Source: Saccharofermentans sp. (lineage in GTDB: Bacteria; Bacillota; Clostridia; Saccharofermentanales; Saccharofermentanaceae). From it: a DNA stretch of 64,000 bases. The notes below the pieces were generated by a model, which was not told the DNA's origin, searched no databases, and saw only the letters and a list, made by a program, of their open reading frames with translations. Positions 2,654 to 26,122 of this stretch are shown here, piece after piece. The DNA is taken from NCBI GenBank assembly GCA_024691325.1, contig JAILNR010000011.1, forward strand, positions 1-64,000, given 5' to 3'. Position numbers and translations under genes: made by a program. Position 1 is the stretch's first letter; each line of letters opens with the position of its first letter.

Positions 2654-4953
2654 CACATCAGGACCTGCATAGAACCTGAAAGCACGATCGGATCCTTCGA
2701 TGCAGGAAGGAATACGGACTCTCCCTTTGATAAAGACACTTCTGAATCGGCACAAGTAATCTTGCCGCTTCCTTCGATACAAACTGCGGCATCAAACTTA
2801 CTGTCGTCGGCAGGCACCGTAATCTGTCCGTCGACATCATAGACCAAAGCCTCAAAGTATTTGCATCTGCAAATGACATTTCCTTTCTCTTCAATGCGCT
2901 GAGGCTCATACTTGCTGTAGTCCATTACATCGAGAGCCTTATCAAGATGAAGCTCACGCGAATTACCGTATCTGTCCACACGTCCGTAGTCGTAGAGCCT
3001 GTATGTACAGTTGCTTGACTGCTGAACCTCGCATATAAGATTGCCGGCACCGATCGCATGCACGGTACCCGCGGGGATAAAGAACACATCGCCCTTCTTT
3101 GTCGGAACGAAGTTAAGAAGTTCAGTAATGGTGCCGTCTTTGACAGAGGCCTCCACTTCATCGCGGGTTACATCTCTTTTAAATCCCGCATAAAGACCGG
3201 AACCCGGAAGAGAATCAATGACATACCACATCTCGTTCTTGCCGTATGATGACTCGTTTTCCAGTGCGTAGTCATCATCGGGATGAACCTGTACCGACAG
3301 ATCCGAGGAAGCATCTATGAGCTTTACCAACAGAGGGAAAGCCCTTAACGAAGAACACTTCCATCCGAGAGTCGCCTTTCCGACCGTCTCGATGTATTTG
3401 CCAAGATACATTCCGCGGTGCCTTCCGTTGATGACACGTGTCTGACCGTCGGGATGTGCCGAGAGCACCCATGCCTCAGCTATCTTGTCCATATCACTTA
3501 CCATGCCAAAGTCAGTCTTAAGGCGCGATCCGCCCCAGATATATTCCTTATAGGCAGGGCGCAGTTTAAGTATCGGATCCACCTTAACGCCGAGTTCGAT
3601 CTCGCCGACATTAGTTGCAGTACGCTCCTGTCTGTCGTCAGACAGTATCTCATCGCCATTTGCAGTTGCAATAAACTCAAGCACGGTATCACCGGGATTT
3701 GAAAGCTGGTGCTTAACTCCCGGTTTAACTTCTATAACACCATTGTTCTCATATTCGGTGGTAACTCCGTCGAGAGCCACCAGAGCCTTGCCCGACAGGA
3801 TGATCCAGTTCTCGGTTCTCGTCTCATGGGAATGCTCATATATAGTTCTTCCCGGACGCACATAATTATGTCTTACATAGTGACCGGGGGTCTGCTCAAG
3901 TTCCTTATAGTATCCCCACTGTCTGAAGTGGATGTCACTTGAATCAATATACTTGCCGATCTTATCCGTACCGTTCTCACCGGAATTTAGAAGTTCCTTA
4001 AGGTCGTTGGCACTGCTTTGTCCGCGGCTGCCTACGAAGACGGCATCATCCGTGTTGACAACGACAGCATCCTTAATGCCGCTGACTACGACTGCTTTTC
4101 GAGAGGATTTATTGATGATGAGTGTTCCATCTGAATTGACTGCCGCTGACGGGCCGAGGTTCTTATAGGAGAACTTCTCAAGATCCTCGAGCGATGTTAA
4201 GTCTTTCCAGTCAAATTCGGACTTAACCAAAGAAAGCTTATCTGTGTTCTGGAGCACGAGCCTTTCGACCGAGATGCGCTCGATAAGATCTAACGCATCC
4301 TTGCCAAAGACAAGATCTCCGTCTTTCTCCTGCCTTAAGGCATAAGCTTTTTTGCATGAATCATAAACATCGGGGGAAACCCTCTTAAGCTCGTTAAGGA
4401 AGATACCGGCCCTTACAAGTATCATGCCAAGATTCCTGTACCGGGGCGCAGGGATCACGGACGGATCCTCCGGCTTTTCCCTAAATACAACAGGATCTCC
4501 GTAGATGTAGCCGTAACGGGGATTAATATCGGTTTCTTCCTTGCCGAACACGACAATCTTCTGATCGGCGGCAACCGATTTTGCTTCAACGATAGCTTCG
4601 GCATATCCCTTGGTATCGTCTATCATAATGTCGGATGAAACCACGAGAACAAATTCTGAAGGCTCAAGTGACATCATAGCCATGGTAACTGAAGCCGTCG
4701 TTCTTCTCGGGACATCCTCATAGAAGGACCTGTATGACAAGCCCTGGAAAGCTCTTAACTGATCCTCGATAACATGCCTGTGCTCGCTTCCTGCCGCGAT
4801 AAGAAATTCATCGCAGTAGGGCATATTACGTGCTATCGTATCCTGAAAGACAGAATGGTACTGTGTGAGCTCGATAAACTGCTTAGGATAACTTCTTCTC
4901 GATAAGGGCCAGAGCCTCTCACCACGTCCTCCCGCAAGAATCAAACACTTCAC
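2644..4953 (-). CDS. Mannose-1-phosphate guanylyltransferase / type II PMI cupin / type I mannose-6-phosphate isomerase fusion
   Basis: N-term LILAGGRGERLWPLSRRSYPKQFIEL (ManC); central cupin VRPGRTIYEHSHETRTENWIILSG; C-term YIWGG...VQVHPDDDYA...FFIPAGTVHAIG (ManA). GTG start overlapping the upstream stop (GTGA). Confidence 0.9.
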   Translation of the reverse strand: MKCLILAGGRGERLWPLSRRSYPKQFIELTQYHSVFQDTIARNMPYCDEFLIAAGSEHRHVIEDQLRAFQGLSYRSFYEDVPRRTTASVTMAMMSLEPSEFVLVVSSDIMIDDTKGYAEAIVEAKSVAADQKIVVFGKEETDINPRYGYIYGDPVVFREKPEDPSVIPAPRYRNLGMILVRAGIFLNELKRVSPDVYDSCKKAYALRQEKDGDLVFGKDALDLIERISVERLVLQNTDKLSLVKSEFDWKDLTSLEDLEKFSYKNLGPSAAVNSDGTLIINKSSRKAVVVSGIKDAVVVNTDDAVFVGSRGQSSANDLKELLNSGENGTDKIGKYIDSSDIHFRQWGYYKELEQTPGHYVRHNYVRPGRTIYEHSHETRTENWIILSGKALVALDGVTTEYENNGVIEVKPGVKHQLSNPGDTVLEFIATANGDEILSDDRQERTATNVGEIELGVKVDPILKLRPAYKEYIWGGSRLKTDFGMVSDMDKIAEAWVLSAHPDGQTRVINGRHRGMYLGKYIETVGKATLGWKCSSLRAFPLLVKLIDASSDLSVQVHPDDDYALENESSYGKNEMWYVIDSLPGSGLYAGFKRDVTRDEVEASVKDGTITELLNFVPTKKGDVFFIPAGTVHAIGAGNLICEVQQSSNCTYRLYDYGRVDRYGNSRELHLDKALDVMDYSKYEPQRIEEKGNVICRCKYFEALVYDVDGQITVPADDSKFDAAVCIEGSGKITCADSEVSLSKGESVFLPASKDPIVLSGSMQVLMCHV

Positions 4954-5678
4954 TTAAAATAGCTCCTTCGTACCCTTAAGTTCCACCAGATTCCGATGGT
5001 ATCAAAGAACATCCTGAAGATGTCGGATATCCTTATTCTACCAAAAGACTTGTCCCTTCTGTATATGATCTCGACAGGAAGCTCCTCTATCTTCGCGCCG
5101 TCACGTGCACAAAGAGCGAGAAGTTCAATATCAAAAGCATACCCCTTCACGCGGAGCACCGGAGCCGCTTTCTTTATGAATCCCGCTTTGTAGATCTTTA
5201 TTCCTGTTTGTGTGTCTTTAAGGTTCATACCGAACAGGATCTTAAGAATTACGAAGTAACCCCACGAGACGAATCTTCTTAAGGGGGGATAATCAAGCTT
5301 GGATTCCTTATGCATCTTGGAGCCGATAACTATATCGCAGCCTGACTCATCCATATGCTTTAAGTAAGTCACCAGGTGGTGCGGGGCTATATCAAGGTCG
5401 GCATCTATAAATCCGATAAGCTCTCCTGAAGCAACCTCAACGCCATGCTTGATTGCGCTGCCTTTGCCGCGGTTCTGATCGTAGCCTGCATACTTGATAT
5501 CAGGATCTTCTTCGCAGGCTTTAAGTATCTGTTCCTTGGTGTTATCCGAGCTCCCGTCGTTGACGGCAAGTATCTCGAAGTCACCGGTATTTCCTTTCAA
5601 GGTCTGACTTATCTCAAGAAGATTCTCCCTGATTCTGTCACCTTCGTTATATGCGGGTACGATAACCGATAATCTCAT
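4950..5678 (-). CDS. GT2 family glycosyltransferase, DPM1-like (polyprenyl-phosphate sugar synthase type)
   Basis: LSVIVPAYNEGDRIRENL...VNDGSSDNT...GKGSAIKHGV...GFIDADLDIAP; TAATG overlap with the upstream gene. Confidence 0.85.
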   Translation of the reverse strand: MRLSVIVPAYNEGDRIRENLLEISQTLKGNTGDFEILAVNDGSSDNTKEQILKACEEDPDIKYAGYDQNRGKGSAIKHGVEVASGELIGFIDADLDIAPHHLVTYLKHMDESGCDIVIGSKMHKESKLDYPPLRRFVSWGYFVILKILFGMNLKDTQTGIKIYKAGFIKKAAPVLRVKGYAFDIELLALCARDGAKIEELPVEIIYRRDKSFGRIRISDIFRMFFDTIGIWWNLRVRRSYFK

Positions 5679-8473
5679 TACCTTATTCCGTCAAACTCCC
5701 ATGCTTCAGTATCTATTACTTGTGTCCCGTCAAAGCGGTACCACTCACTCTCGCAGAAACGAAGTGCATCAGCCCCTGCCAAAGTATCAGAAGAATTTAC
5801 ATTCCAATCCTCAGAATTTATAACATACATCGGCATATTATGCATCCCCTCCATCGTTATGGGGTTACCCGTAAACGGATTTACGGGATTCTCGATAATG
5901 CCGTTAGCGGCAAGATAAGGAACATCCGCATTCGTCATGAACTCGTCGCTTATCTCAAAACCCGTCGCCCCAAAATCCTTAACCATGAGAACGGGATTGT
6001 ATGCATCGATTCCCATCATGCCCATCCTGAGTTGTCCGTAAAACATGTCACAATCGCGGTACATGATACCGTGATCCGCAACTATTATTATCCTTGTGTT
6101 ATCCCAAACACCCTGCTGCCTTAAGTAATCAAAATAGCGGCCAAGCTGCAAGTATGCGCCCGCATTGCTTGTATAGTGCTCCATGGCGGAATACTGATCC
6201 ATGTTAAGAGCATATCCGTTAACGCCTTCGCTGAATCTGTCAGCATGTGCCGCATCATACTCGGTGTTGTCAACAGACTGCGCGGGAACATAGTCGGGAG
6301 CCTGCAGGAGCATGACAAAGTGTGTGGCATCGTTATCAAGATACATGAATGTGCCCGGAACATCATCTTCGATCACCGTTATATCTGAAAGCTGCGTTAA
6401 GACATCGTAAGACTGCATGAATTCTCCGATAACACCCCATGACGAAGACGGTCCGAATGACACCTGCGGGATAGTTAACTCCCATTCGTAACTCATTCCC
6501 ACATCAGCCTCGTTATAAAGACCGTTGTTGTAAACCGATTCCTGAACCAAAAGCGGGCTTACCTTAAACAGTGAGTAACAAAAATAGTTTCTCTCCCAAA
6601 GCTTTTCCTGGATCATATTAAAGTTAAAGAAATCCTGCGCCACCACACCCTGGGCATGGTAAGCATGAATACCGCTAAGGCCGAGCTGCTCGAAAATATC
6701 AAGATCCGGATCATCGAGATACCCCGCATAAGGAGGATCAAGAACGGTTACCTCGAATCCTTCCTCGCTGAAGATAGCAGGCATTACTGCAAGAGCCTCA
6801 TCATGCTTCTGCCTTAATGTCCTTGTATCGTCTTCGCAGATCGCGCGTGAAGTATAGTCATAGCCTCCAAACAAAGCGGGTGCTCCAAACTTTGTATGAT
6901 TACCGAATGACAGTGTGTTGGGATAAACCGTAAAACCATCGAACTGCTCCTGAAGCTGCGGAATCTCATTAAAGATAATAGGAGCCATGAATCCCGGTGC
7001 CCTGTCGAGCATCAGCACCATAACATTTTGGCCTGTAGATGACAGGGGAATCTGCGGAATCTCAATGTCCCTTTTTAAAAGCATCTCATGGTATGACTTG
7101 TTTATAGTCATCATGTAAGACCCGCTCATAACACAGGATACGATTACAAAGATGATGGAGATTCCTTCCGTGATCTTAGGCAGCTTACGGAACATAAAAA
7201 ACATCACTATGAATACTATAGCTAAAACAACAAGGTTAATAAGCTTGGATGATATAGAGAAATAAAGAGGCTGGTAATAAACAAAGTTAACCGATATCTC
7301 TCCAAGATCAGTGCCGAAGAACAGGTAAGTAATCAGGAATGACGGGCACAAAGCACACCAGATGTAACTTATAATCACCCTGCTCTTTTTACCCGCAAGA
7401 CTATAGAACACCCCTCCCCATATGACAAAGAAACCTGCCGCTATAAGTACTGAGTGAACCACGAAATAGTTCGGGGAACGAAGATTCATTATGTCCATGA
7501 ACTCTGAAGGCGACACCTTAACAACTGAGGCAGGGATCATTGCACCGGTAAGAGCGGTCAGAAACAATCCGCTTAGAAGAAATATATTCCTGTGTGTGCC
7601 CGAATACTCCGGGAAACGAAGGGATGCGGGAACCGCAATGATCTTCTTTTGCTTAATAAAATGAATTATCAAAGGAATAATAAGTGCCAAAGCAAGGACA
7701 GTTAAGCGAACCTTCCTTGAGCCGTAAGGAGTCTTATAGAGAGTATTTACATATAAAGCTGCAAAGACGCCCGTGACCGCACAGATTATAGAGAATACAA
7801 ATCCGGGCCTTTTAAGTTTGTAAAGGGCATTCTTTACCAATGAGAATACATTGTTCAAGGTCCAGTAGAAAGCAAGTCCCGACGGCGAGTTATAAAGAAG
7901 GACCAGGAACAAAAGCGCCATGCCGTACAGCTGTATCTTACTCTTAAGAGGCATTCCCCTTGTGTAGATATATCCGGATACTATGTTAATGACCGTCATT
8001 ATTATCGGGAGGATATTGATGTTTGCTCCCATCAAATGCATAAGCGAGTCAGGAGATCCCAGATCGTTAATCGGACCGAACGCAGCTCCTCTTAACAAAA
8101 GAAGGTGCGAGAGGAAATTATATGCCGCCATAAAGAAAGGAATCTGCAAAAGAAGAGATACTGAACTTCTCAGAATAAATACGGGAGAATAGTTATTCTC
8201 CCTGTAGTAAGCCTGAAGCATCATCATTCTCTCGTCGCCTTTGAATGCCTTCTTTACTCTGGCAATTCCGGCTTCCAAAGACTGTTCGAGTTCCCTCTCC
8301 TGTTTTTGAACTTCATCTGCCCTGTTATAAAGAGGAAGTACCAGAAAGTTCACAACCAGGCTCAGGATAATAATAGCCCATCCCGGGTTTCCTACGATCC
8401 TGTTTGCAATCGTGAAAACTATCTCGAAGAACAGCTCGAGAGGATATATGAGGACCGTGTATAAAGCACTCAT
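5678..8473 (-). CDS. YidC/Oxa1-like domain fused to sulfatase/LtaS-like domain (array copy 1 by coordinate, last transcribed)
   Basis: 931 aa; NPGWAIIILSLVVNFLVLPLY...SPSGLAFYWTLNNVFSL (YidC fold); NVMVLMLDRAPGF...NHTKFGAPALFGGYDYT...TRIIIVADHGIMYRDCDMF (alkaline phosphatase superfamily). Confidence 0.85.
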   Translation of the reverse strand: MSALYTVLIYPLELFFEIVFTIANRIVGNPGWAIIILSLVVNFLVLPLYNRADEVQKQERELEQSLEAGIARVKKAFKGDERMMMLQAYYRENNYSPVFILRSSVSLLLQIPFFMAAYNFLSHLLLLRGAAFGPINDLGSPDSLMHLMGANINILPIIMTVINIVSGYIYTRGMPLKSKIQLYGMALLFLVLLYNSPSGLAFYWTLNNVFSLVKNALYKLKRPGFVFSIICAVTGVFAALYVNTLYKTPYGSRKVRLTVLALALIIPLIIHFIKQKKIIAVPASLRFPEYSGTHRNIFLLSGLFLTALTGAMIPASVVKVSPSEFMDIMNLRSPNYFVVHSVLIAAGFFVIWGGVFYSLAGKKSRVIISYIWCALCPSFLITYLFFGTDLGEISVNFVYYQPLYFSISSKLINLVVLAIVFIVMFFMFRKLPKITEGISIIFVIVSCVMSGSYMMTINKSYHEMLLKRDIEIPQIPLSSTGQNVMVLMLDRAPGFMAPIIFNEIPQLQEQFDGFTVYPNTLSFGNHTKFGAPALFGGYDYTSRAICEDDTRTLRQKHDEALAVMPAIFSEEGFEVTVLDPPYAGYLDDPDLDIFEQLGLSGIHAYHAQGVVAQDFFNFNMIQEKLWERNYFCYSLFKVSPLLVQESVYNNGLYNEADVGMSYEWELTIPQVSFGPSSSWGVIGEFMQSYDVLTQLSDITVIEDDVPGTFMYLDNDATHFVMLLQAPDYVPAQSVDNTEYDAAHADRFSEGVNGYALNMDQYSAMEHYTSNAGAYLQLGRYFDYLRQQGVWDNTRIIIVADHGIMYRDCDMFYGQLRMGMMGIDAYNPVLMVKDFGATGFEISDEFMTNADVPYLAANGIIENPVNPFTGNPITMEGMHNMPMYVINSEDWNVNSSDTLAGADALRFCESEWYRFDGTQVIDTEAWEFDGIR

Positions 8474-11253
8474 CTTACTCCTTCATACTCCCATGAGTCT
8501 GTGTCGAAGATATTATCACCTGTAAATGTGTACCAGTCTCCGGGGAGGAATCTCAACGCATCAGCGCCGGCCTCAGTATCAGTTACATTCCAGTCAGGAG
8601 TGTCATATACAGTGATAGGGCCGCTGTGTCCGCTCATATTTATCGGATTTCCGGTAAACGGATTAACAGGATCGTTCACGATACCGTTTAAGGCGATGTA
8701 AGGGACATCTGCATTGGTCATGAGATCATTGCAGACCGTAAAGCCCGTTGAATCAAAATCCTTAACCATTAGAACCGGATTGTAGGCCTCGATCGTTACG
8801 TTTCCTATCAGCATCTGACTTGCAAACATATCCGCATCAAGATGGAGGATAGCATGGTCGGCAACAACAATTATCCTTGTGTTATCCCATACGCCCTGTT
8901 CTCTTAAGTAGTCGAAGTACTGTCCGAGCTGGATATAGGCCGCGACATTACTCTGGTAGTGTCTCATGGTCTGATAGGAACTCATATCAAGATAGTATCC
9001 GTTAACAGACTCATCGAACCTGTCCGCATGATCAGCGTCATATTCCGTATTATCAACTGTCTGGGAAGGCTCATACTCAGGCTCCTGCAAAAGCATAGTG
9101 CTGTGAGGCGTCTCATTATCTATATACATGAATGTACCGGGAATACCGGATTCAATATCCGTAATAGCATCAAGATTTGAAAGGACTGAGTATGCCCCCA
9201 TAAACTCCTCATTAACGCCTGTTGATTCTGACACGTTTATACCGATCTGGGGAATCGTAAATGCGCCTTCATCGGCATATCCGATATCTGCCTGATTATA
9301 CTGACCTCTGTTGTAGACCGTGTTTTGAATTACAAGAGGACTTATCTTCAATATCGAATAGCAGAAGAAATTCCTCTGCCACAGGTTCTCCTGAATCTGA
9401 TCAAAGTTGAAAGAATTCTCCAGGCTGCTTCCCGCGGTTATATATGCGTTGATGCCGTCGTACTCCTCCCCTGCGAAAACAGAAATATCCGGAGGAGATG
9501 CATATCCCGCATAAGGAGGATTGATAAGCGATACTTCAAAACCCTCGTCATGAAAAAGGAAAGGCATCACGGATAATGCTTCGTTCTGCTTCTGTTCCAA
9601 AGTCCTGCTAAGGTCTTCATTGATAGCCTGCGGAGTATAGTCGTAACCGCCGAACAATGCAGGAGCACCAAACTTCGTGTGATTTCCGTATGACAATGTA
9701 TTAGGGTAGAAAGTAAATCCGTCAAACTGATCCTGAAGTTCCGGAATCTCTTCAAAGATATAAGGAACCAGGTATCCGGGTGCCCTGTCTATCATGAGCA
9801 CCATTACATTCTTTCCATCCGAAGATAAGGGTATCTTCGGATTGTCACTTACCCACTTGGCAAGATTGACCTCATATTCGCGGTGAATGGAAGTCATGTA
9901 CGTTCCTGTCATTACAACCAGGGCCGCTATGATGATAACCGCGATTCCTTCTGAGATCTTCTTGCTTAACTTGAATAAACCTATAAAAACAGCCGCTCCG
10001 AATAAAACAAGGAAGAGATTCAAAAGCTGTAATGTGTGCGAATATGTGAAAGGCTTATCATAGATAAAATTAATGGATATCGTACCGAGATTCGTTCCAA
10101 AGAACAGATAAGTAATCATGGCTGCCGGACAAAGACCCCACCATAAAAGGCTGATGATAACTCTGCCCTTCTTCCCTGCGAGGAAGAAGAAAACGCTTCC
10201 CCAAACGATGAAGTATCCTGCGGCGATAAGACCCGCATGAATAACATAGATGTTAGGAGACTTAAGATCGAGGAAACTCATAAACTCCGAAGGAGAAGTC
10301 TTGATTACTGATGAAGGAATCAGAAAACCTGTTAATGCCGTTAAGAACAATCCGCTTAACAGGAATATATTTCTGTTGGAACTTGTGTATTCCGGAGTCT
10401 TGACTCTGATAAGATTCTCACTTGTTATCTTTTGCTTTATAAGAGCTATGACCAAAGGAAGGATGAGAAGAACTCCCACCACCGTAAGTCTTAACTGCCT
10501 TGCAAGATAAGTATCATAGACCGTATTTACAAACAGGATGATGTACACGCCGGCTGCACAGGAAACGCAGGACAAAACAAAGCCCGGACGCTTAAACCTC
10601 ATAAAGACATTCTTAAGCATCGAGAACACATTATTAAGTGTCCAGTAAAATGCCAGTCCCGACGGCGAGTTATAAAGAAGCACCAGGAACAAAAGAGCCA
10701 TACCGTAAAGCTGAACCTTGCTCTTTAAGGGCATGTCCTTTGTGTAGATGTATCCTGAGATAAAGTTGATCAATGTCATTAGTATAGGAAGAACATTAAC
10801 ACCTATACCTGCTATAACGAACATCCTGTCCGGAGATCCGAGGTCATGTATCGGTCCGAATGAAACTCCCTTCAAAAGCATGAGATTCGACAGGAATCTG
10901 TATGCCGCCATAAAGAAAGGGATCTGAAGAAGAAGTGATACCGAACCTTTAAGAACAAATAACGGTGAATAGTTATTCTGATTGTAATAGGTCTGGAGCA
11001 TCATCATTCGCTCGTCGCCCTTAAATGTCTTCTTTATATGAGCGATACCGTCTGCGAGTGAAGCTTCAAGATCTCTTTCTTCTCTTTGAACCTCATCAGC
11101 ACGCTTATAAAGAGGAAGGACCAGGAAATTTACTGCGAGGCTTAATATGATGATAGCCCAACCAGGATTGCCGACAATCCTGTTTGCAATCGAGAACACC
11201 ACTTCGAAGAATAATTCAAGCGGATAAATTAAGATTGTATATAAAGCACTCAT
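8470..11253 (-). CDS. YidC/Oxa1-like domain fused to sulfatase/LtaS-like domain (array copy 2)
   Basis: 927 aa; same architecture; catalytic motif reads ADHA rather than ADHG; ATGA overlap with the next gene. Confidence 0.85.
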   Translation of the reverse strand: MSALYTILIYPLELFFEVVFSIANRIVGNPGWAIIILSLAVNFLVLPLYKRADEVQREERDLEASLADGIAHIKKTFKGDERMMMLQTYYNQNNYSPLFVLKGSVSLLLQIPFFMAAYRFLSNLMLLKGVSFGPIHDLGSPDRMFVIAGIGVNVLPILMTLINFISGYIYTKDMPLKSKVQLYGMALLFLVLLYNSPSGLAFYWTLNNVFSMLKNVFMRFKRPGFVLSCVSCAAGVYIILFVNTVYDTYLARQLRLTVVGVLLILPLVIALIKQKITSENLIRVKTPEYTSSNRNIFLLSGLFLTALTGFLIPSSVIKTSPSEFMSFLDLKSPNIYVIHAGLIAAGYFIVWGSVFFFLAGKKGRVIISLLWWGLCPAAMITYLFFGTNLGTISINFIYDKPFTYSHTLQLLNLFLVLFGAAVFIGLFKLSKKISEGIAVIIIAALVVMTGTYMTSIHREYEVNLAKWVSDNPKIPLSSDGKNVMVLMIDRAPGYLVPYIFEEIPELQDQFDGFTFYPNTLSYGNHTKFGAPALFGGYDYTPQAINEDLSRTLEQKQNEALSVMPFLFHDEGFEVSLINPPYAGYASPPDISVFAGEEYDGINAYITAGSSLENSFNFDQIQENLWQRNFFCYSILKISPLVIQNTVYNRGQYNQADIGYADEGAFTIPQIGINVSESTGVNEEFMGAYSVLSNLDAITDIESGIPGTFMYIDNETPHSTMLLQEPEYEPSQTVDNTEYDADHADRFDESVNGYYLDMSSYQTMRHYQSNVAAYIQLGQYFDYLREQGVWDNTRIIVVADHAILHLDADMFASQMLIGNVTIEAYNPVLMVKDFDSTGFTVCNDLMTNADVPYIALNGIVNDPVNPFTGNPINMSGHSGPITVYDTPDWNVTDTEAGADALRFLPGDWYTFTGDNIFDTDSWEYEGVR
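10654..11150. repeat. Near-identical DNA segment shared with about 13419-13915
   Basis: Read by eye: about 500 bp with roughly a dozen scattered substitutions at a constant 2765-bp offset, encoding the YidC-like domain of copies 2 and 3. Confidence 0.85.
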
Positions 11254-14018
11254 CTTACTCCGTCAAACTCCCATGAGTCTGTATTATAAACCTCATTACC
11301 GTTAAATACATACCAGTCGTCTTCCGCAAATCTTAAAGCGTCGGGTCCTGCCACTGTCCAATCATCAGAATTCAGAACATAGAACGGCATCTCATGATTC
11401 ATAACGAGAGGGTTGCCTGTAAACGGATTCACAGGATTCTCGATGATACCGTTAGTCGCAATATATGGCACATCTGCGTTAGTCATTATACTTTCATCAA
11501 TACTAAAGCCGCTTGCTCCAAAATCCTTTACCATCAGGACGGGATTGAAAGCATCAATATTCATCGCGCCGATATCAAGCTGCCCGCCAAACATATTAGC
11601 ATACTGATTCATAATTCCGTGATCCGCAACTATTATTATCCTCGTGTTATCCCACACTCCCTGTGCCCTTAAGTAATCAAAATAGGAGCCAAGCTGTATG
11701 TATGCAGCAGCGTTACTTGCGTAATGGCTCATCGAAGTATAGCTGTTCATATCAAGAGAATAACCATTCACCGTACTGTCAAATCTTCCTGTATGAGCTG
11801 CATCATATTCAGTATTATCGACATACTGAAGCGGTCTGTATTCAGGGGCATGGAGAAGGATAGCATCGTGTGCCGTGTCGTTATCCATATACATAAACGT
11901 ATCCGTTGAGTCATTAACTATGGTTGTAATATCATCAAGTTCGTTAAGTGTCTCATACGCTGACATAAAATCCCTGTTAACGCCGCTGCTTATCGACGGA
12001 CCGAATCCTATCTGGGGAAGTGTGAAATCCGTCTCGTAATTAACAGGCTCTTCCGTACGGTTATATCTTCCCTCGTTATATACGGTAGCCTGTATATAAA
12101 GCGGGGAAATCTTAAAGACTGAGTAGCAGAAGAAATTACGAAGCCATATGCGCTCCTGATATTCCTCGAATTTGTAGAAGTCATCAACGATCACGCTCTT
12201 GGCATTGTATGCATTGATGCCTTCATATAAAGGCCCTGAAAAAACACTGATATCCCCGGGCGATACACCACCTGCATACGGAGGATCTATTATCGTTACT
12301 TCAAAACCATCGTCTCTGAACAATACCGGCATGACTGAAAGAGCTTCATTCTGTGTCTGCCCCAAAGTTCTGGTTGTATCACTGTTTATAGCTTCAGGAG
12401 TGTAGTCATATCCTCCAAAAAGAGCACCCGCTGCAAACTTGGTGCTGCTTCCAAAAGAAACTGTATTGGGGTAGAAGGTAAAGCCGTCATACTGCTCTTG
12501 AAGCTGCGGTATCTCATCGAAAATATAGGGAACAACAAAACCGGGGGCTCTGTCGAGCATAATAACCATTACATTTCTTCCCTGCGTCGATAACGTGATC
12601 TGGGGGAACTCGCTCTGAACTCTTTTAAGGTTTTCCTTGTACGCATCATTGATAGGTCCGATGTTGATAAAGCTCATAACTGCGGCTACTGCAACTATGA
12701 TAATGATCAAACCTTCACAGATCCTCGGAATGAAACGGTATATGAGTAAAATGCTTACAACCGCCAAGACAACCAGAATACCGTTAATAAGTTTTTGTGA
12801 GGATGTAAATTCAAAAGGCATTACATACACGAGGTTAACGGAAATATCTCCGAGGTCCGTACCGAAGAACAGATACGAGATCAGGGAAGCTGGACACAAG
12901 ATCAGCCATACCCTGCTCATCACCGCTCTTGTCTTCTCCCTTGCAAGTGCAAAGAACACGCCTCCCCACAATACAAAGAAACCGGTTGCTATAAAGAAAG
13001 CATGCCAGACATATATGATGGGGTTTTTAAGATTCATAAGATCCATGAACTCGGAAGGAGATGTTTTAATTACCGAGGACGGGATAAGGAAGCCCGTAAG
13101 GATAGCCATGAACAGTCCGCTTAAGATAAATATGTTCCTGTCCTGCTTACTGTATCCTCGGATCTTTATCTTAAGACTGTTTCCGATTCCCTTGCTCTTC
13201 GCGATTATAAAGCACAAAGGAAGCACAAGCATCAATGCGATAAGTGTAAGTCTTACCTTTCTTGTCGCATACGGTGTGTCATATAAGGTATTAACATAGA
13301 CCGCCATTACGACTCCCGTTACGGCGCAGAACAAAGAGAAAACAAGTCCCGGCTTTTTAAGCTTGTAAAGTGCGTTCTTGCAAAGAGAGAACACATTATT
13401 AAGCGTCCAGTAGAATGCAAGTCCCGACGGCGAGTTATAAAGAAGCACCAGGAACAAAAGAGCCATACCATAAAGCTGAACCTTGCTCTTTAAGGGCATG
13501 TCCTTTGTGTAGATGTATCCTGAGATAAAGTTGATCAATGTCATTAGTATAGGAAGAACATTAATACCTATACCTGCTATCACGAACATCCTGTCCGGAG
13601 ATCCGAGGTCATGTATCGGACCGAATGAAACTCCCTTCAAAAGCATGAGATTCGACAGGAATCTGTATGCCGCCATAAAGAAAGGGATCTGAAGAAGAAG
13701 TGATACCGAACCTTTAAGAACAAATAACGGTGAATAGTTATTCTGATCGTAATAGGTCTGGAGCATCATCATTCGCTCGTCGCCCTTAAATGTCTTCTTT
13801 ATGTGTGCGATACCGTCTGCAAGTGAAGCTTCAAGATCTCTTTCTTCTCTTTGAACCTCATCAGCACGCTTATAAAGAGGAAGGACCAGGAAATTTACTG
13901 CGAGGCTTAATATGATTATGGCAAGTCCGGGATTACCGACTACCCTGTTTGCAACCGAGAATACGACTTCAAAGAACAGTTCAAGCGGATATATAAAGAT
14001 TGTATATAATGCGCTCAT
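11250..14018 (-). CDS. YidC/Oxa1-like domain fused to sulfatase/LtaS-like domain (array copy 3)
   Basis: 922 aa; same architecture; long near-identical DNA tracts shared with copies 2 and 4. Confidence 0.85.
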   Translation of the reverse strand: MSALYTIFIYPLELFFEVVFSVANRVVGNPGLAIIILSLAVNFLVLPLYKRADEVQREERDLEASLADGIAHIKKTFKGDERMMMLQTYYDQNNYSPLFVLKGSVSLLLQIPFFMAAYRFLSNLMLLKGVSFGPIHDLGSPDRMFVIAGIGINVLPILMTLINFISGYIYTKDMPLKSKVQLYGMALLFLVLLYNSPSGLAFYWTLNNVFSLCKNALYKLKKPGLVFSLFCAVTGVVMAVYVNTLYDTPYATRKVRLTLIALMLVLPLCFIIAKSKGIGNSLKIKIRGYSKQDRNIFILSGLFMAILTGFLIPSSVIKTSPSEFMDLMNLKNPIIYVWHAFFIATGFFVLWGGVFFALAREKTRAVMSRVWLILCPASLISYLFFGTDLGDISVNLVYVMPFEFTSSQKLINGILVVLAVVSILLIYRFIPRICEGLIIIIVAVAAVMSFINIGPINDAYKENLKRVQSEFPQITLSTQGRNVMVIMLDRAPGFVVPYIFDEIPQLQEQYDGFTFYPNTVSFGSSTKFAAGALFGGYDYTPEAINSDTTRTLGQTQNEALSVMPVLFRDDGFEVTIIDPPYAGGVSPGDISVFSGPLYEGINAYNAKSVIVDDFYKFEEYQERIWLRNFFCYSVFKISPLYIQATVYNEGRYNRTEEPVNYETDFTLPQIGFGPSISSGVNRDFMSAYETLNELDDITTIVNDSTDTFMYMDNDTAHDAILLHAPEYRPLQYVDNTEYDAAHTGRFDSTVNGYSLDMNSYTSMSHYASNAAAYIQLGSYFDYLRAQGVWDNTRIIIVADHGIMNQYANMFGGQLDIGAMNIDAFNPVLMVKDFGASGFSIDESIMTNADVPYIATNGIIENPVNPFTGNPLVMNHEMPFYVLNSDDWTVAGPDALRFAEDDWYVFNGNEVYNTDSWEFDGVR
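13021..13425. repeat. Near-identical DNA segment shared with about 15783-16187
   Basis: Constant 2762-bp offset; encodes the linker/TM region FSLCKNALYKLKKPGLVFSLFCAVTG...SPSEFMDLMNLKNP in copies 3 and 4. Confidence 0.85.
13885..13980. repeat. Near-identical DNA segment shared with about 16647-16742
   Basis: Same 2762-bp offset; encodes the N-terminal VVGNPGLAIIILSLAVNF region of copies 3 and 4. Confidence 0.75.
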
Positions 14019-16780
14019 CTTACTCCGTCATACTCCCATGAATCCAAATCCAGAACCGAAGTTCCGTTAAAAGAATACCAATCATCTTCAGCGAAACGCA
14101 ATTGATCCCTGTCCGCTGTTGAAGAATCATTGGAATTATATACTAATAAAGGCATCTCGTGCTGCATAATAATCGGATTGCCGGTAAAAGGATTTATGGG
14201 ATTATTGATAATCCCATAAGTTGCAAGGTACGGCACATCCGCATTGGTCATTAAACTGTCGTCTATGTTAAATCCGCTTGCACCAAAATCCTTTACCATC
14301 AAAAGCGGATTAAAGGAATCAACATTGACACCGTTTATATCAGCCTGTCCGCCAAACATATCTGCGAAGCTATCGGCTATTCCGTGATCCGCAACTATTA
14401 TTATCCTCGTGTTATCCCACACGCCCTGTGCCCTTAAGTAATCAAAATAATCTCCGAGCAAAATGAATGCAGCCGCATTGCACTGATAATGACTCATACT
14501 TAAGTGATTTGTCATATCAAGATACAGTTCTCCGTTAACAGGCTCCTCGAAGCGGTCCTGATGCGCCTCATCATAAGCCGTGTTATCAACAAACTGGAAC
14601 GGTGCATAATCAGGCTCTCTTAGCATAATGACATCATGCGTTGTATTGTTTGCCATATACATGAATGACCCGCTTATTTCCTCCACCAAAGTTATATCAT
14701 CAAGCTTGGTAAGCTCTTCATAAGCGAACATAAAGTTCTGATTAACACCAAAGCAGGTGGTCTCATCCGTAATAACCTGGGGAAGACTGAATTCGACTTC
14801 ATAGGACATACTGTCAGGCTGATTATAGCGGCCGAGATTGTAGATAATATCCTGAAACATAAGAGGTGATACCTTAAGTATTGAGAAGCAGAAGAAATTA
14901 CGAAGCCAGATCTTCTCCTGATACTGCTCAAAACTGTAGAAATCATCTGTAAGGATTCCCTCTGCGTCGTAAGCCGTTATCCCTTCATACTCAGGTCCTG
15001 AGAAAATACTGATATCACCGAATTCATCATATCCCGCATACGGGGGATCCATAACAGTTACATTAAAACCCTCATCCCTGAACAGAACCGGCATAACGGA
15101 AAGAGCCTCATTGTTCATCTGTACCAGAGTTCTTGTTGTATCGGCATTAACAGCAGCAGGAGTGTAATCGTAACCGCCGAACATAGCGGGAGCACCATAC
15201 TTGGTGTATTTACCAAAAGATAAGGTGTTCGGATACAAAGTAAACCCGTCGAACTGTGCCTCGAGTTCAGGCATCTCATTAAAGATGTAAGGAACAAGAT
15301 ATCCCGGAGCCCTGTCGAGCATGATCACCATAACGTTCCTGCCGTCAGATGATAATGTAATTTGGGGAAGATCGCTTTGAACCCTGTTAAGATTGTCTTT
15401 ATAGGCTGCGTTTACAGGTATGACATTAACAACACACATGATCGCGGAAACTACAACAAGCGTCATGATTATGAACTCGCATATTCTCGGGACAAACCTG
15501 TACAAAACAACCACGGTCAAAACCGTAAACAGCACAGCAAGAAGATTGATTGCTTTTTGCGGGAAAGAGAACTCAAGCCTTCGAAAATACATTAAGCTTA
15601 CATTAAGGTCTCCGAGGTCAGTTCCAAAGAAAAGGTAACTGACGAGTGACGCAGGGCACATCGCAAACCACAGTCTGCTCATCAGGGCCTTGACCTTGTC
15701 GCTTGCAAGTCCGAAGAAAACTCCTCCCCACACAATGAAGAATCCCAAAGCAATGAGGGAAGAATTAAGAACATATATCACCGGGTTTTTAAGATTCATA
15801 AGATCCATAAACTCTGAAGGAGATGATTTAATTACCGAGGACGGGATAAGGAAGCCCGTAAGGATAGCCATGAACAGCCCGCTTAAGATAAATATGTTCC
15901 TGTCCTGCTTACTGTATCCGCGGATCTTTATCTTAAGGCTGTTTCCAATCCCCTTGCTCTTCGCAATCATAAAGCACAAAGGAAGCACAAGCATCAATGC
16001 GATAAATGTAAGTCTTACCTTTCTTGTCGCATACGGTGTGTCATATAAGGTATTAACATAGACCGCCATTACGACTCCCGTTACGGCACAGAACAAAGAG
16101 AAAACAAGTCCCGGCTTTTTAAGTTTGTATAGCGCGTTCTTGCAAAGAGAGAACACATTATTAAGCGTCCAGTAAAATGCAAGTCCCGAAGGTGAGTTAT
16201 AAAGCAATACCAAAAACAAAAGAGCCATACCGTAAAGCTGTACCTTGCTTTTGAGCGGCATACCTCTTGTGTATATATATCCCGAGATGACATTTATTAA
16301 TGTCATTACGACAGGAAGCAGATTGATCGTGATCCCGCCTATAGGAAGCATCCTGTCGGGAGACCCCAGGTCACTTATAGGTCCGAATGATGCACCGTTT
16401 AAAAGTGCAAGGTTCGACAGAAAACTATACGCCGCCATGAAGAACGGAATCTGAAGAAGAAGTGATACCGAACCTTTGAGCACATACAAAGGAGAATAAT
16501 TATTCTCCCTGTAAAATGCCTGAAGCATCATCATTCTCTCGTCGCCTTTAAAGGCTTTCCTGATACGGGCTATACCGCTTTGTAAGGATTCCTCGAGTTC
16601 TCTTTCCTGCTTTTGAACTTCATCTGCTCTGTTATAAAGCGGAAGCACCAGGAAATTTACTGCGAGGCTTAATATGATTATGGCAAGTCCGGGATTACCG
16701 ACTACCCTGTTTGCAATCGAGAATACGACTTCAAAGAACAGTCTCAAGGGAAATATGAAAACCGTATAAAGAGCATTCAT
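14015..16780 (-). CDS. YidC/Oxa1-like domain fused to sulfatase/LtaS-like domain (array copy 4)
   Basis: 921 aa; same architecture; ATGA overlaps on both sides. Confidence 0.85.
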   Translation of the reverse strand: MNALYTVFIFPLRLFFEVVFSIANRVVGNPGLAIIILSLAVNFLVLPLYNRADEVQKQERELEESLQSGIARIRKAFKGDERMMMLQAFYRENNYSPLYVLKGSVSLLLQIPFFMAAYSFLSNLALLNGASFGPISDLGSPDRMLPIGGITINLLPVVMTLINVISGYIYTRGMPLKSKVQLYGMALLFLVLLYNSPSGLAFYWTLNNVFSLCKNALYKLKKPGLVFSLFCAVTGVVMAVYVNTLYDTPYATRKVRLTFIALMLVLPLCFMIAKSKGIGNSLKIKIRGYSKQDRNIFILSGLFMAILTGFLIPSSVIKSSPSEFMDLMNLKNPVIYVLNSSLIALGFFIVWGGVFFGLASDKVKALMSRLWFAMCPASLVSYLFFGTDLGDLNVSLMYFRRLEFSFPQKAINLLAVLFTVLTVVVLYRFVPRICEFIIMTLVVVSAIMCVVNVIPVNAAYKDNLNRVQSDLPQITLSSDGRNVMVIMLDRAPGYLVPYIFNEMPELEAQFDGFTLYPNTLSFGKYTKYGAPAMFGGYDYTPAAVNADTTRTLVQMNNEALSVMPVLFRDEGFNVTVMDPPYAGYDEFGDISIFSGPEYEGITAYDAEGILTDDFYSFEQYQEKIWLRNFFCFSILKVSPLMFQDIIYNLGRYNQPDSMSYEVEFSLPQVITDETTCFGVNQNFMFAYEELTKLDDITLVEEISGSFMYMANNTTHDVIMLREPDYAPFQFVDNTAYDEAHQDRFEEPVNGELYLDMTNHLSMSHYQCNAAAFILLGDYFDYLRAQGVWDNTRIIIVADHGIADSFADMFGGQADINGVNVDSFNPLLMVKDFGASGFNIDDSLMTNADVPYLATYGIINNPINPFTGNPIIMQHEMPLLVYNSNDSSTADRDQLRFAEDDWYSFNGTSVLDLDSWEYDGVR

Positions 16781-19587
16781 CGTGTCCCATCAAACTCCCA
16801 TGCACTCCTGTTGAAGATTCTGTCGCCGTCAAATGCATACCAGTCTCCCTCAGAGAATGCGTAAGCATCTGCACCTGCAATGGCATCGCCTTCCTCAACA
16901 TTCCAGTCTTCAGAATCGTATATGAGCATAGGCATATCTACTTTGCCATCCATGGTAAGAGGATTACCGGTGAACGGATTTACCGGATTATCTATAACAC
17001 CCTGCGTAACCAGATACGGCACATCCGCATTGGTCATAAAGTCATCGCAGATATGAAAACCTGTAGCTCCGAAGTCCTTAACCATAAGAAGGCAGTTATA
17101 ACTTTCCATATTAATATCACGAACGATCGTCTGTCCTCCGAACATATCGGCAGTAGGACCGTGATCCGAGACGATAAAGATCCTTGTATTATCCCAGACT
17201 CCCTGTTCTCTTAAATAATCAAAATACAGGCCGAGCTGGATATAAGATGCAGCGTTGCACTGGTAGTGTGCCATCGCAGTTGATGAGTTCATCTGCAGAG
17301 GATAACCATAGACAGGAGATGCGAATCTGTCCGCATGATCCCTGTCATACGCTACATTATTAACTATCTGTGCGGGAGCATACGAAGGCTCATCGAGCAT
17401 CATTGTGTTGTGAGCAGTAACGTTATTTATATACATGAAAGTATCCGTGCTCTCATCGTTTATATCCGTTATAAGATCAAGATTGGTAAGAACGGTATAA
17501 GCATTCATAAATACCTGGGATACTCCCACAGCCTCAGACTTGTTTGACACGGTTTGGGGCATTGTGAACTCAACATCCGAACCGGAACCCGTGAAACCGG
17601 GGTCAGCCATATTGTAGTTTCCCTGATTATAGATACTGTTCTGCATAAAGAGCGGACTTACTTTGAACAGGCTGTAACAGAAGAAGTTCCTCTCCCATAT
17701 CGCACTTTGCTGCTCGATAAAATCTGCATTAACATTCACAAAGCGTCCCTTGGTGATATATGCATTAATACCCTCATATCCTTCACCCTCGAACACACCG
17801 AGGTTAGGAACCCACTCGTAACCTGCAAAGGGAGGGTCACAAACCGTAACCTCAAAGCCGTTATCCCTGAACAGCACAGGAAGGACCGAGAGTGCCTCGT
17901 CATGCTTTTCGACCAGGGTCTGATCTGTGATGTTGCATATCTGAGCGGGGGTATACTCGTAACCTCCGAACAAAGCCGGAGCAGCAAACTTCGTGTGAGA
18001 ACCGAACGAGAGCGTGTTGGGATAGTAGGTAAAACCGTCGAACTGCTCCTCAAGCCCTGAAATCTCGTCGAAAATATAAGGAACAAGATAGCCCGGAGCG
18101 CGGTCAAGCATGATAACCATAACGTTGCGTCCGTTAGTTGAAAGAGGGATGCGCGCAAGCTCACTTACACTGCCCATCGATACGCGGATGAATGCCCTCT
18201 GAATAATATTCATGTTGTAAACACTCATTCCCACTGCAGCGATAACGAGTGAAAGAGCAAGTGCTTCAGTCGCCTTCTTAAATGTGCTCGCCACGAGTAC
18301 AAAGAGGACAACTATAGTGAAAACGGCAAGCATATTTACGATCTGCTGCATGACCGTGTAAGTAAACGGGTCATCATAGATCAGATCAGTAGAGAGATTG
18401 CCGAGCTTCGTTCCGAAGAAAAGATAAGTTACGGCGGCCGCAGGACAAGCTGCCCACCAGATGTAACTCATTAACGATCTTGTGTGCTCACGGGACAAAC
18501 TGAAGAAGATTCCGCCCCAAACAAGGAACACGCCTGCAGCAAGCAAAGTCGCAATAACGATATAGTAGTTAGGCGTCCTGTAGCTTACGGCATCTATGAA
18601 CTCTGAAGGTGATGTCTTTATTACCGTGGAAGGAATCAGAAGTCCGGTAAGAGCCGTAAGGAATGCACCGCTTAAGATAAACAGGATCTTGTTATGCTTA
18701 GTGTATTTAAGTTTCCTTGCAAGGCCCATAAGATATGACGGTTTTCTTCCCTTAATTATCGCTATGATCAAAGGAAGGATAAGAGCCGCTCCAAGAAGAG
18801 TGAGGCGGAATTGTCTTGCGGGGTAAGGTGAATCGTAAGCTGTATTAACAAACAGCATGATCACTGCACCGCTTATCGCAGAGACGACCGACAGAACAAA
18901 TCCCGGGCGCTTAAATCTCATGAAGATGTTCTTAACCATCGAGAACAGGTTGTTTAAAGTCCAGTAGAAAGCAAGACCTGACGGTGAATTGTAAAGGATT
19001 ACCAGGAACAAAAGAGCCATACCGTAAAGCTGAACCTTGTTCCTTAAAGGCATGTCCTTCGTGTAGATGTATCCTGAGATAAAGTTGATGAGTGTCATTA
19101 ATACAGGAAGAACATTAATAGTAACTCCTGCAAGAACGATCATCTTGTCAGGTGAACCCAGATCATCGATAGGACCGAAGCTTACGCCTCTTATGATCAT
19201 GAGGTTCGACAGGAACCTGTAGGCCGCCATAAAGAAAGGAATCTGCAAAAGCAGGGATACAGAACCCTTAAGAACATACAGCGGAGAATAATTATTCTGA
19301 TTGTAAAAGGTCTGGAGCATCATCATGCGCTCGTCGCCCTTAAAAGTCTTCTTTATGTGTGCGATACCGTCAGCTAATTGGGCCTCGAGATCTCTTTCCT
19401 GCTTTTGCACCTCATCAGCTCTCTTATAAAGAGGCAGAACAAGGAAATTAACTGCAAGACTTAAGATGATGATCGCCCAGCCCGGATTCGGAACGATCCT
19501 GTTTGCCACGGTAAAAACAACCTCGAAGAACAATTCGAGAGGCTTAATAATCAGGTCAAACAGAATTGTAGTCAAAGACGGTATCAA
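16777..19587 (-). CDS. YidC/Oxa1-like domain fused to sulfatase/LtaS-like domain (array copy 5, first transcribed)
   Basis: 936 aa; apparent TTG start and a distinct N-terminus (MIPSLTTILFDLIIKPLELFFE); motif SDHGPTADMFGG is shortened relative to the other copies. Confidence 0.82.
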   Translation of the reverse strand: MIPSLTTILFDLIIKPLELFFEVVFTVANRIVPNPGWAIIILSLAVNFLVLPLYKRADEVQKQERDLEAQLADGIAHIKKTFKGDERMMMLQTFYNQNNYSPLYVLKGSVSLLLQIPFFMAAYRFLSNLMIIRGVSFGPIDDLGSPDKMIVLAGVTINVLPVLMTLINFISGYIYTKDMPLRNKVQLYGMALLFLVILYNSPSGLAFYWTLNNLFSMVKNIFMRFKRPGFVLSVVSAISGAVIMLFVNTAYDSPYPARQFRLTLLGAALILPLIIAIIKGRKPSYLMGLARKLKYTKHNKILFILSGAFLTALTGLLIPSTVIKTSPSEFIDAVSYRTPNYYIVIATLLAAGVFLVWGGIFFSLSREHTRSLMSYIWWAACPAAAVTYLFFGTKLGNLSTDLIYDDPFTYTVMQQIVNMLAVFTIVVLFVLVASTFKKATEALALSLVIAAVGMSVYNMNIIQRAFIRVSMGSVSELARIPLSTNGRNVMVIMLDRAPGYLVPYIFDEISGLEEQFDGFTYYPNTLSFGSHTKFAAPALFGGYEYTPAQICNITDQTLVEKHDEALSVLPVLFRDNGFEVTVCDPPFAGYEWVPNLGVFEGEGYEGINAYITKGRFVNVNADFIEQQSAIWERNFFCYSLFKVSPLFMQNSIYNQGNYNMADPGFTGSGSDVEFTMPQTVSNKSEAVGVSQVFMNAYTVLTNLDLITDINDESTDTFMYINNVTAHNTMMLDEPSYAPAQIVNNVAYDRDHADRFASPVYGYPLQMNSSTAMAHYQCNAASYIQLGLYFDYLREQGVWDNTRIFIVSDHGPTADMFGGQTIVRDINMESYNCLLMVKDFGATGFHICDDFMTNADVPYLVTQGVIDNPVNPFTGNPLTMDGKVDMPMLIYDSEDWNVEEGDAIAGADAYAFSEGDWYAFDGDRIFNRSAWEFDGTR

Positions 19588-19596: not shown

Positions 19597-20853
19597 TCAA
19601 CCTTCTTTTGCATCGTCACTGCTAAGGCTCTTAAGATTATCAATAAGATAATCGCACACGGAAGATGTCGCATTCCCTATATTCTTCCATGCAGTGCTTC
19701 GAACCTCACGGCGTGCTGATTCATAGGCGGGATCGTTAATACATTCATCTATCATTCCCTTAAGGTTGCCCTTATAGTCGTCTGTAATTTCCTTTCCCAC
19801 CTTAGGAAGGATCTCGAACGTCCACGGAGTTTCATTGAGCCACCATGCATCATAAGGATCCTTGGAGAAGCCTGCGTTAGCATACATAACTGGCTTATCA
19901 AATACCAAAAGGAAATCGAAGATAACTCCGGAGAAATCGGAGATCATTATGTCAGTCCTTGCAAGAACGTCGAAGTTATCGTTATCCCTGTTCCATTCAA
20001 AATTCTCATTATCTGGATATTGGGCCATCAGTTTATCAAGAAGGTCCTTCTCAGAAGAAAAAGACTGGGGGTGAGGCCTTACGATTACATGATATCCGGT
20101 ATTGATAAGCTCATCGATAAATGGAGCTCCGTACTTTGTAAGGATACCTGAAGGACCCCATGAAGGAGCAAGTAAAACCACCGGCTTACCGTTTCCGCTC
20201 TTGGAAACAGTATGATTCTCAAGGCGCTTCTTCATCTCATCGAGATATGTAAGTCCAACCAGCTTTATCTCTTTCGCGGGGAGTTTTCTTAACGTCTCAA
20301 GCTGTCTTGTCTGCTCCACCTGATGGTCACCGGACAAAAGGAGTGCATCATAGTAATCGGTACCGAACATACGGTACAAAGAGATGTTTCCGGGAGCATG
20401 AAGTATATGTACATATTTATTTACTGTCTTTGAACGCTTCCACTGGTAAACCTGAAGTCCCGGCGTTGTCGACAGAAGTATGTATGCATTAAGGATATTA
20501 AGTCTGGAGAATGCCTTATTGCCTTCACCTATGAACTCGCAGACTACATTTTTATAGTCTTTGCCTGCCTCGAGAGCAGGATCATCGGGGGAAGCCGTGT
20601 AGAAGTAAGCCTTCTGTCCCCTTTTCTCAAGCTCATCACATATAGGCTTAAAAACATTCCAATAACGCTTATGATCTGAAAAGATAACTATAGGGAGTTT
20701 GTTCTTATCTATCTTGGCCTTCTTACCGCCTGACAGAATGAACTTTATCTTTACTATTGCAGATCTCAAAAAGAATACAACGACACCGATGATTCCAATC
20801 AATATCGAGAAAAGCATGCTTCCCGTACCGGGATCGATATAAAGAACTACCAT
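19597..20853 (-). CDS. CDP-glycerol glycerophosphotransferase family protein (TagB/TagF-like) with N-terminal membrane segment
   Basis: VVLLAPSWGPSGILTKYG...YHVIVRPHPQS...DIMISDFSGVIFDFLLVFDKPVMYAN. The listed ORF starts at 20964, but ATG at 20853 has a GGGAGG SD and avoids overlap with the upstream gene. Confidence 0.85.
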   Translation of the reverse strand: MVVLYIDPGTGSMLFSILIGIIGVVVFFLRSAIVKIKFILSGGKKAKIDKNKLPIVIFSDHKRYWNVFKPICDELEKRGQKAYFYTASPDDPALEAGKDYKNVVCEFIGEGNKAFSRLNILNAYILLSTTPGLQVYQWKRSKTVNKYVHILHAPGNISLYRMFGTDYYDALLLSGDHQVEQTRQLETLRKLPAKEIKLVGLTYLDEMKKRLENHTVSKSGNGKPVVLLAPSWGPSGILTKYGAPFIDELINTGYHVIVRPHPQSFSSEKDLLDKLMAQYPDNENFEWNRDNDNFDVLARTDIMISDFSGVIFDFLLVFDKPVMYANAGFSKDPYDAWWLNETPWTFEILPKVGKEITDDYKGNLKGMIDECINDPAYESARREVRSTAWKNIGNATSSVCDYLIDNLKSLSSDDAKEG

Positions 20854-20899
20854 GTTTTTACCTCCCGATAGGACATTATATAGTGTTAAAAGGAAAAAA

Positions 20900-22564: not shown

Positions 22565-23082
22565 TGAAGCCTCATAAGTAAGCTGTCATTGTGCTCGTCA
22601 TAAGGAATGAGCTGCGCATAAAGTCCGTCACCCTCACACAAAACAAGACCGTTATCGATGTTGGTAATGAAGTAGTACATCGAATTACCGTCTCTGTTGA
22701 CTATCCATCTGCACGACCCCTCATCAGGGGAATTGCTCATAAAGATCTCATTATTCTCATTTGATGCAAGGTATAAAACTGTTCCCCTGATATCTATGGA
22801 AATAAGATATGAATCCGATTCTTCATCATAATCGAAAGTGAATTCATCATCATGATGAGTATCGTTCCTGAACAGCATCAGCTGATAGTTATCCTCATAA
22901 TCTGACGTAAGAAGGCGGAATGAATCATGCACATAAATCCGTGTCGTATATGTGTCACCGAGAGTTTTGTTGTTAACGGGCCACCTTATTGAGAACACAA
23001 CGATCAGTGCGAGAAGAAACGCGGGCACAATAAGCCGCAGAATAACAGAGCTTTTCGCAAGTCCTGAGCCCTTGTTTCCCAT
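22561..23082 (-). CDS. Single-TM protein with extracellular beta-trefoil/ricin-like domain (tentative)
   Basis: One N-terminal TM; YLISIDIRGTVLYLASNENNEIFMSNSPDEGSCRWIVNRDGNSMYYFITNIDNGLVLCEGDG resembles QxW-type lectin repeats and the adjacent ORF. Confidence 0.45.
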   Translation of the reverse strand: MGNKGSGLAKSSVILRLIVPAFLLALIVVFSIRWPVNNKTLGDTYTTRIYVHDSFRLLTSDYEDNYQLMLFRNDTHHDDEFTFDYDEESDSYLISIDIRGTVLYLASNENNEIFMSNSPDEGSCRWIVNRDGNSMYYFITNIDNGLVLCEGDGLYAQLIPYDEHNDSLLMRLQ

Positions 23083-25064: not shown

Positions 25065-25066
25065 TA

Positions 25067-26086: not shown

Positions 26087-26122
26087 AATAATGTCCTCAC
26101 TTTATAAACTCTGTTTTCACTG

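Follow-up and report, generated by a model that had tools for sequence, protein, structure and literature searches.

The transferases LtaS and EptA/MCR consist of a five-helix transmembrane (TM) segment followed by an extracytoplasmic domain with the alkaline phosphatase (AP) fold, in which an Asp/Glu ligand, a Thr nucleophile and an Asp-His pattern recur and transfer of a headgroup from a lipid donor is expected. The YidC/Oxa1/Alb3 insertases are built on five TM helices and a cytosolic hairpin, and the TagF/TarL CDP-alditol phosphotransferases on a PF04464 domain with a GT-B fold. Surface decoration is the presumed role of most phosphonate gene clusters. In the Lic and phosphonyl-tailoring (Pnt) clusters, LicA and LicC provide for phosphocholine, and PepM, Ppd, a 2-aminoethylphosphonate (AEP) transaminase and a cytidylyltransferase for phosphonates; the steps that attach phosphonates to bacterial surfaces have been described as unknown (PMC6697681). 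Here we describe a tandem array of five genes on the minus strand (5678-19587) of a 64,000-nucleotide stretch of Saccharofermentans DNA, referred to as the window, whose products join a YidC/Oxa1-like domain to an AP-superfamily domain.

We propose, with confidence that is about evenly balanced, that these fusion proteins and a TagF-like protein together make up a machine of two proteins for headgroup transfer, the fusion being its extracytoplasmic half and the TagF-like protein its loader; the proposal draws on sequence comparison and structure models. More tentatively, a branch of the YidC/Oxa1 superfamily may have given up protein insertion and now provide the membrane crossing within a headgroup transferase; together with its TagF-like loader it would attach phosphocholine and phosphonates to bacterial surfaces by a third route, in addition to those of LicD and LtaS/EptA. 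The fusion family thus offers a concrete candidate for such a transferase system in a genome without a recognisable LicD. Literature searches on YidC with sulfatase, LtaS, CDP-glycerol or glycerophosphotransferase, covering open-access papers, gave no description of the fusion, in keeping with a preliminary description of this DNA that knew of no characterised function for it.

Domain composition and active site of the fusion proteins

The array comprises five consecutive open reading frames (ORFs) of 921-936 aa with one shared architecture, in which neighbouring genes overlap by 4 nt each and are translationally coupled:

5678..8473, minus strand: Y1, 931 aa, YidC/Oxa1-like domain (residues 31-217), TM region and AP-superfamily domain (ORF, Pfam/NCBIfam and alignments)
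8470..11253, minus strand: Y2, 927 aa, the copy with a modelled structure
11250..14018, minus strand: Y3, 922 aa, a mosaic of a Y2-like YidC part and a Y4-like TM part with its own catalytic domain
14015..16780, minus strand: Y4, 921 aa (ORF, Pfam and identity comparison)
16777..19587, minus strand: Y5, 936 aa, TTG start

All five copies carry a YidC/Oxa1 domain at residues ~31-220, with matches over the cut-offs of both Pfam 60KD_IMP (E 1e-24 to 1e-25) and NCBIfam yidC_oxa1_cterm, E-values reaching down to about 1e-27 across the two models. The preliminary description had proposed five minus-strand ORFs with a YidC/Oxa1 N-terminus, and the ORF calls and domain matches agree with it; the motifs it quoted are likewise all present, copy 2 having VADHA, not VADHG. 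The C-terminal match to Pfam Sulfatase is weak in the array copies (E 3e-5 to 0.05, below cut-off) and passes the cut-off in the genome's two other fusion copies, at a locus designated C21. Overall amino acid identity among the array copies is 55-72%.

A family profile was built from 117 fusion members, to which the residue counts below refer, with numbering according to copy 2. This profile matches YidC structures (E 2.5e-13), so that the N-terminus, for which the absence of a YidC fold had been considered, is matched to YidC by Pfam, NCBIfam and profile-versus-structure search; it also matches AP-superfamily structures, including phosphonate monoester hydrolase and LtaS. An AlphaFold model of copy 2, computed with the 117-member alignment, has a mean pLDDT of 91.7 and a pTM of 0.88. 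Comparison of this model by Foldseek, a check that had been suggested beforehand, returned sulfatases, phosphonate monoester hydrolase, VP1736, LtaS, PbgA and MCR-1, with E-values of 1e-6 to 1e-7 for the AP-superfamily fold. Residues D489, T526, H717, D799 and H800 are invariant in 117/117 relatives. The metal ligands and nucleophile of AP enzymes occupy such positions, and these five are likely to be the metal and nucleophile residues of the fusion, their equivalence to the LtaS ligands being drawn from motif and order rather than from superposition. The fold matches and invariant residues together uphold the earlier assignment of an AP-superfamily catalytic domain with a Thr nucleophile and metal ligands. 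An ordinary, formylglycine sulfatase is ruled out: Thr replaces Cys/Ser in 117/117 members and no CxPxR occurs at that place. The Thr in this position argues for a phosphotransferase rather than a sulfatase.

The arrangement of predicted helices and the hydropathy give five YidC TM helices ending inside, an optional TM hairpin (present in 66/117 members) and then five further helices, for a total of five or seven after the YidC domain. This order places the catalytic domain outside, and it is predicted to be extracytoplasmic by analogy with the known topology of YidC. From the fold and the invariant active site, the fusion is likely to be a membrane phosphotransferase acting on a surface polymer, as had been suggested earlier, and its chemistry would by analogy be of the LtaS/EptA type. 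It differs from LtaS and EptA/MCR in its N-terminal YidC domain, in a first ligand that is Asp and not Glu, and in its coupling to a TagF-like gene and often to choline or phosphonate genes; the curated NCBIfam models for LtaS, EptA or OpgB found no match in the array copies at E up to 1. Since the best matches by fold and by profile include PbgA and phosphonate monoester hydrolases, a PbgA-like, non-catalytic sensor or a phosphonate or phosphodiester hydrolase that trims the polymer was also considered. We regard this as improbable: the likely metal and nucleophile residues are all invariant, unlike in a sensor, and the genes linked to the fusion are those of headgroup synthesis and activation, not of catabolism.

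The YidC-like domain and the TagF-like partner

The fusion domain shares with the YidC/Oxa1/Alb3 insertases a homologous domain, the five TM helices and the cytosolic hairpin, and departs from them in being fused to an enzyme, in occurring in multiple copies and in the residue that lines its groove. The groove position in TM1 is Asn in 102 and Ser in 15 of the 117 fusions; in the 31 ordinary YidCs compared (30 from the class plus the host genome's own), Lys occupies it in 24 and Arg in the other 7. The YidC domains of the fusions group in a single clade (support 0.84), separate from the ordinary YidCs, and the three genus genomes in the class survey each encode one ordinary YidC alongside four to eight long YidC proteins. 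The insertase SpoIIIJ requires its groove Arg. Protein insertion is unlikely as the function of the fusion because this Lys/Arg has been lost, and its YidC-like domain probably does not act as an insertase. If the domain were a genuine insertase or chaperone serving only the C-terminal part of the same protein or the TagF-like protein, this would account for the clear YidC homology, with yidC_oxa1_cterm over its cut-off, and for the conserved cytosolic hairpin; such a role is nonetheless very improbable, given that the groove charge is lost in 117/117 members, that a separate ordinary YidC is kept in each genus genome examined, and that duplication of an insertase within every enzyme copy is implausible.

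The proposed cytosolic partner is encoded 9 nt 5' of Y5:

19597..20964, minus strand: TagF-like protein (PF04464) carrying a YIDPGTGSMLF membrane helix at its N-terminus

It scores 39.1 bits against Pfam PF04464 (cut-off 22.1), and its structure model (pLDDT 85) has a GT-B fold with TagF (3l7k) as the best PDB match. These properties are shared with the TagF/TarL enzymes, from which the partner is set apart by its N-terminal membrane helix, by its linkage to choline and phosphonate activation, and by the lack of a detected TagD in the genome. A survey of the neighbourhood of TagB/F genes had been called for, and of the 99 fusion runs eight lack a visible 5' gene; in 52 of the other 91 a TagF-like gene lies directly 5', mostly at gaps of -1 to 18 nt. 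All four PF04464 proteins of the host genome lie in or beside fusion loci. Distances between fusions correlate with those between their TagF-like partners (Mantel r 0.85 for the catalytic part and 0.90 for the YidC part, 0/2000 permutations), which is support rather than proof, as the sequences are related and shared ancestry may contribute.

At a third locus of the host genome, C33 (L011), the same components are arranged differently. One protein (3867-5945) joins a YidC domain to a TagF-like domain, and the adjoining TM protein (5785-8160) lacks YidC but is homologous to the catalytic part of the fusion (hhalign E 2.8e-11). The C33 YidC groups with ordinary YidCs, outside the fusion clade, which suggests that YidC entered this partnership on two independent occasions. 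As a common architecture the YidC-TagF fusion was rejected, since it was found only in the host genome and one sister genome.

Headgroup genes and the proposed transfer route

The genes near the fusions point to the headgroups that may be transferred. At C21 (L010, L184), two fusions and two TagF-like genes flank genes for a BCCT transporter, LicA/LicC, NTP-transferases, PhnW, a cytidylyltransferase-PepM and Ppd; PhnW and PepM exceed their NCBIfam equivalog cut-offs, as does the same-family Ppd of another locus (L141). The host genome thus shares with Lic and Pnt clusters the genes for choline uptake, kinase, cytidylyltransferase and AEP synthesis, and differs in that a LicD-type transferase was not found and the TagF-like protein and YidC-AP fusion stand in its place. 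LicD (PF04991) has no match in the host genome, in a search that did not extend genome-wide to other consumers of CDP-headgroups such as the PF01066 CDP-alcohol phosphotransferases; without LicD, CDP-choline and CMP-AEP need another consumer. No glycerol-3-phosphate cytidylyltransferase (TagD) scores over the cut-off in this 98% complete genome, the only match being the cytidylyltransferase domain of PepM (28 bits against a cut-off of 165), which makes CDP-glycerol unlikely. Because choline and phosphonate activation genes recur near the fusion and TagD is not recognisable, the donor headgroups are probably phosphocholine, aminoethylphosphonate and similar groups rather than phosphoglycerol. 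The phosphotransfer envisaged earlier is retained, and a phosphoglycerol donor, as known from LtaS-related enzymes, is disfavored on these grounds.

The three loci found outside the genus all (3/3) contain a TagF-like gene together with phosphonate genes or BCCT/LicA/LicC, and their PhnW, PepM and Ppd are 83-87% identical to those of the host genome. This shared content indicates that fusion, TagF-like and precursor genes have been transferred as a cassette.

The proposed machine builds on these computed features, namely the domains and fold of the fusion, its invariant active site, the lost groove charge, the coupling with TagF-like genes, the choline/phosphonate linkage and the failure to detect LicD and TagD. 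In a first step, the TagF-like enzyme at the cytosolic face would move an activated headgroup from CDP or CMP onto a membrane lipid; this headgroup would be phosphocholine or AEP, and probably also other aminoalcohol phosphates or hydroxyethylphosphonate. The groove of the YidC-like domain would then let the lipid-linked headgroup cross the membrane, making the domain a dedicated scramblase or flippase. Finally, judging from the invariant active site and the fold, the AP domain would take the headgroup onto Thr526, in the manner of LtaS and EptA, and pass it to the surface polymer. In vitro, purified YidC of E. coli acts as a lipid scramblase (PMC10491306). This published activity, the groove Lys/Arg loss, the TagF-like coupling and the domain-swapped C33 locus lead us to infer that a lipid-linked donor is handled by the YidC-like part, as first suggested in the preliminary description. 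If the model is correct, a YidC fold would serve an enzyme instead of protein insertion, in line with lipid scrambling by purified insertases; such a repurposing would, if shown, be a new kind of system.

Several observations weigh against this model, besides the shared ancestry behind the distance correlation and the reach of the LicD search. The role of the YidC-like domain as scramblase or flippase rests on analogy, and members of the TagF family usually act on polymer, not lipid. At least one choline or phosphonate headgroup gene lies within 5 kb in only a minority of fusion loci (24/76), and the window locus has none within that distance; the headgroup of the array must come from elsewhere in the genome or be a different one. 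PepM is close to a fusion in 7 of the 19 PepM-bearing genus genomes, so a constant link between phosphonate genes and the fusion was rejected. In six other PepM-bearing genomes LicD lies within 10 kb, and in the rest PepM has neither a fusion nor LicD nearby; the genus therefore seems to possess both decoration routes.

The main rival to the two-protein machine is an LtaS/EptA-type enzyme that uses an ordinary phospholipid (phosphatidylglycerol, PG, or phosphatidylethanolamine, PE) as donor, with the YidC-like domain as a membrane platform only and the TagF-like protein independently building or decorating the polymer in the cytosol. The active-site pattern and fold, which resemble those of the PG and PE users LtaS and MCR-1/EptA, and the lack of nearby headgroup genes at most loci speak for it. 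We consider it unlikely because the fusion is closely coupled to TagF-like genes and varies along with them, because the C33 locus has its domains swapped, and because CDP-headgroup genes are linked in 3/3 extra-genus loci. A teichoic-acid-like polymerase module, in which the TagF-like protein would polymerise an alditol phosphate chain for the fusion to export or ligate, has a low probability: no TagD scores over cut-off in the 98% complete genome, a YidC-sized groove is an unlikely polymer exporter, and the nearby precursor genes serve choline and phosphonates, even though TagF is the partner's closest solved fold and fusion loci sit within surface-polymer clusters.

Further gene fusions were noted among the precursor genes. 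At C21, the LicC-type nucleotidyltransferases carry a fused winged-helix domain. A triple fusion of NTP-transferase, cytidylyltransferase and PepM accompanies an Fe-alcohol dehydrogenase and Ppd (phosphonopyruvate decarboxylase) at L141 (8140-12476) and also at L138, L139 and L140; we would guess that this is a hydroxyethylphosphonate cassette, the dehydrogenase being below every curated cut-off. Between fusion genes at L046 (12644-14443), and also in L047-L054, lies a 600 aa protein that joins a nucleotidyltransferase to a class I/II aminotransferase or CobD-like domain and may make a CDP-aminoalcohol or CMP-AEP.

Paralogue divergence, distribution and genomic surroundings

The five array copies have exchanged sequence in their membrane parts. 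Two approximate gene-conversion tracts were delimited by windowed nucleotide identity:

10650..11140, minus strand: tract in Y2, 97-99% identical to Y3 13415-13905
15790..16180, minus strand: tract in Y4, 88-95% identical to Y3 13028-13418

The DNA of Y2 and Y3 is 97-99% identical over most of the YidC part, and that of Y3 and Y4 up to 95% identical over the stretch that follows it, whereas the catalytic domains differ in both pairs; the Y2 tract is also supported by a dS of 0.24, against >1 for the other pairs listed. Within 8470-16780, conversion between neighbouring copies is confined to the YidC and adjoining TM part. A sister genome holds a separate orthologue of each of Y1, Y2, Y4 and Y5; identity in the catalytic part is 82-92% (Y1 89%, Y2 87%, Y4 82%), and dN is far below dS. 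The catalytic domain of Y5 is 79-92% identical in three related genomes. For Y3 no clear orthologue was found in the sister genome, where it is possibly lost in a contig break. Pseudo-copies or an assembly artefact were rejected on the strength of these orthologues of four of the five copies and their low dN. A homogenised membrane module combined with individually conserved catalytic domains argues for distinct specificities rather than dosage, and the tandem paralogues probably differ in acceptor or headgroup. Shared membrane modules with diverged catalytic domains also suggest a route of surface diversification for abundant rumen bacteria.

In Y2-Y5, the 3' end reads ...CATGGGAGT...GGAGTAAG (or similar) before the ATG of the next copy, so the conserved C-terminal codons of the upstream copy may double as the ribosome-binding site of the next.

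A scan of contigs found at least 567 fusion relatives in public genomes, almost all of them from Saccharofermentans-type rumen Clostridia; the loci kept are from rumen and gut Clostridia of this type. The family is not confined to the array locus, an idea rejected in view of these relatives, of the two fusions at C21 and the related split pair at C33 in the host genome (three such loci in all), and of matches in 30/33 same-genus genomes surveyed, many in tandem. A wide distribution in Clostridia was rejected as well. Among other genera of the order, 1/24 genomes has a match, and a marginal one (E 2e-4); with the catalytic-domain profile, 2/348 genomes of the phylum survey carry the family outside the genus; and in the class survey (116 genomes) only the genus and one of the two outside genomes just mentioned encode long YidC ORFs that pass the family cut-off.

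The array is embedded in a large polysaccharide locus:

2644..4953, minus strand: mannose-1-phosphate guanylyltransferase/phosphomannose isomerase fusion, syntenic in relatives
4950..5678, minus strand: GT2 glycosyltransferase (Pfam), directly 3' of the array, as also at L092
20900..22564, minus strand: 554 aa membrane protein with DUF4214 at the C-terminus, in synteny with the array in relatives
23082..24143, minus strand: GT2 and GtrA-type lipid-linked sugar transferase, syntenic in relatives
24171..51680, minus strand: surface-polysaccharide cluster (Pfam) with dTDP-sugar genes, glycosyltransferases, Wzx- and Wzy-type proteins and an Und-P sugar transferase

The product of the cluster at 24171..51680 is a candidate for the acceptor polymer. 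Within this minus-strand cluster, a DUF2142 membrane protein (29504-31699) is encoded alone on the plus strand.

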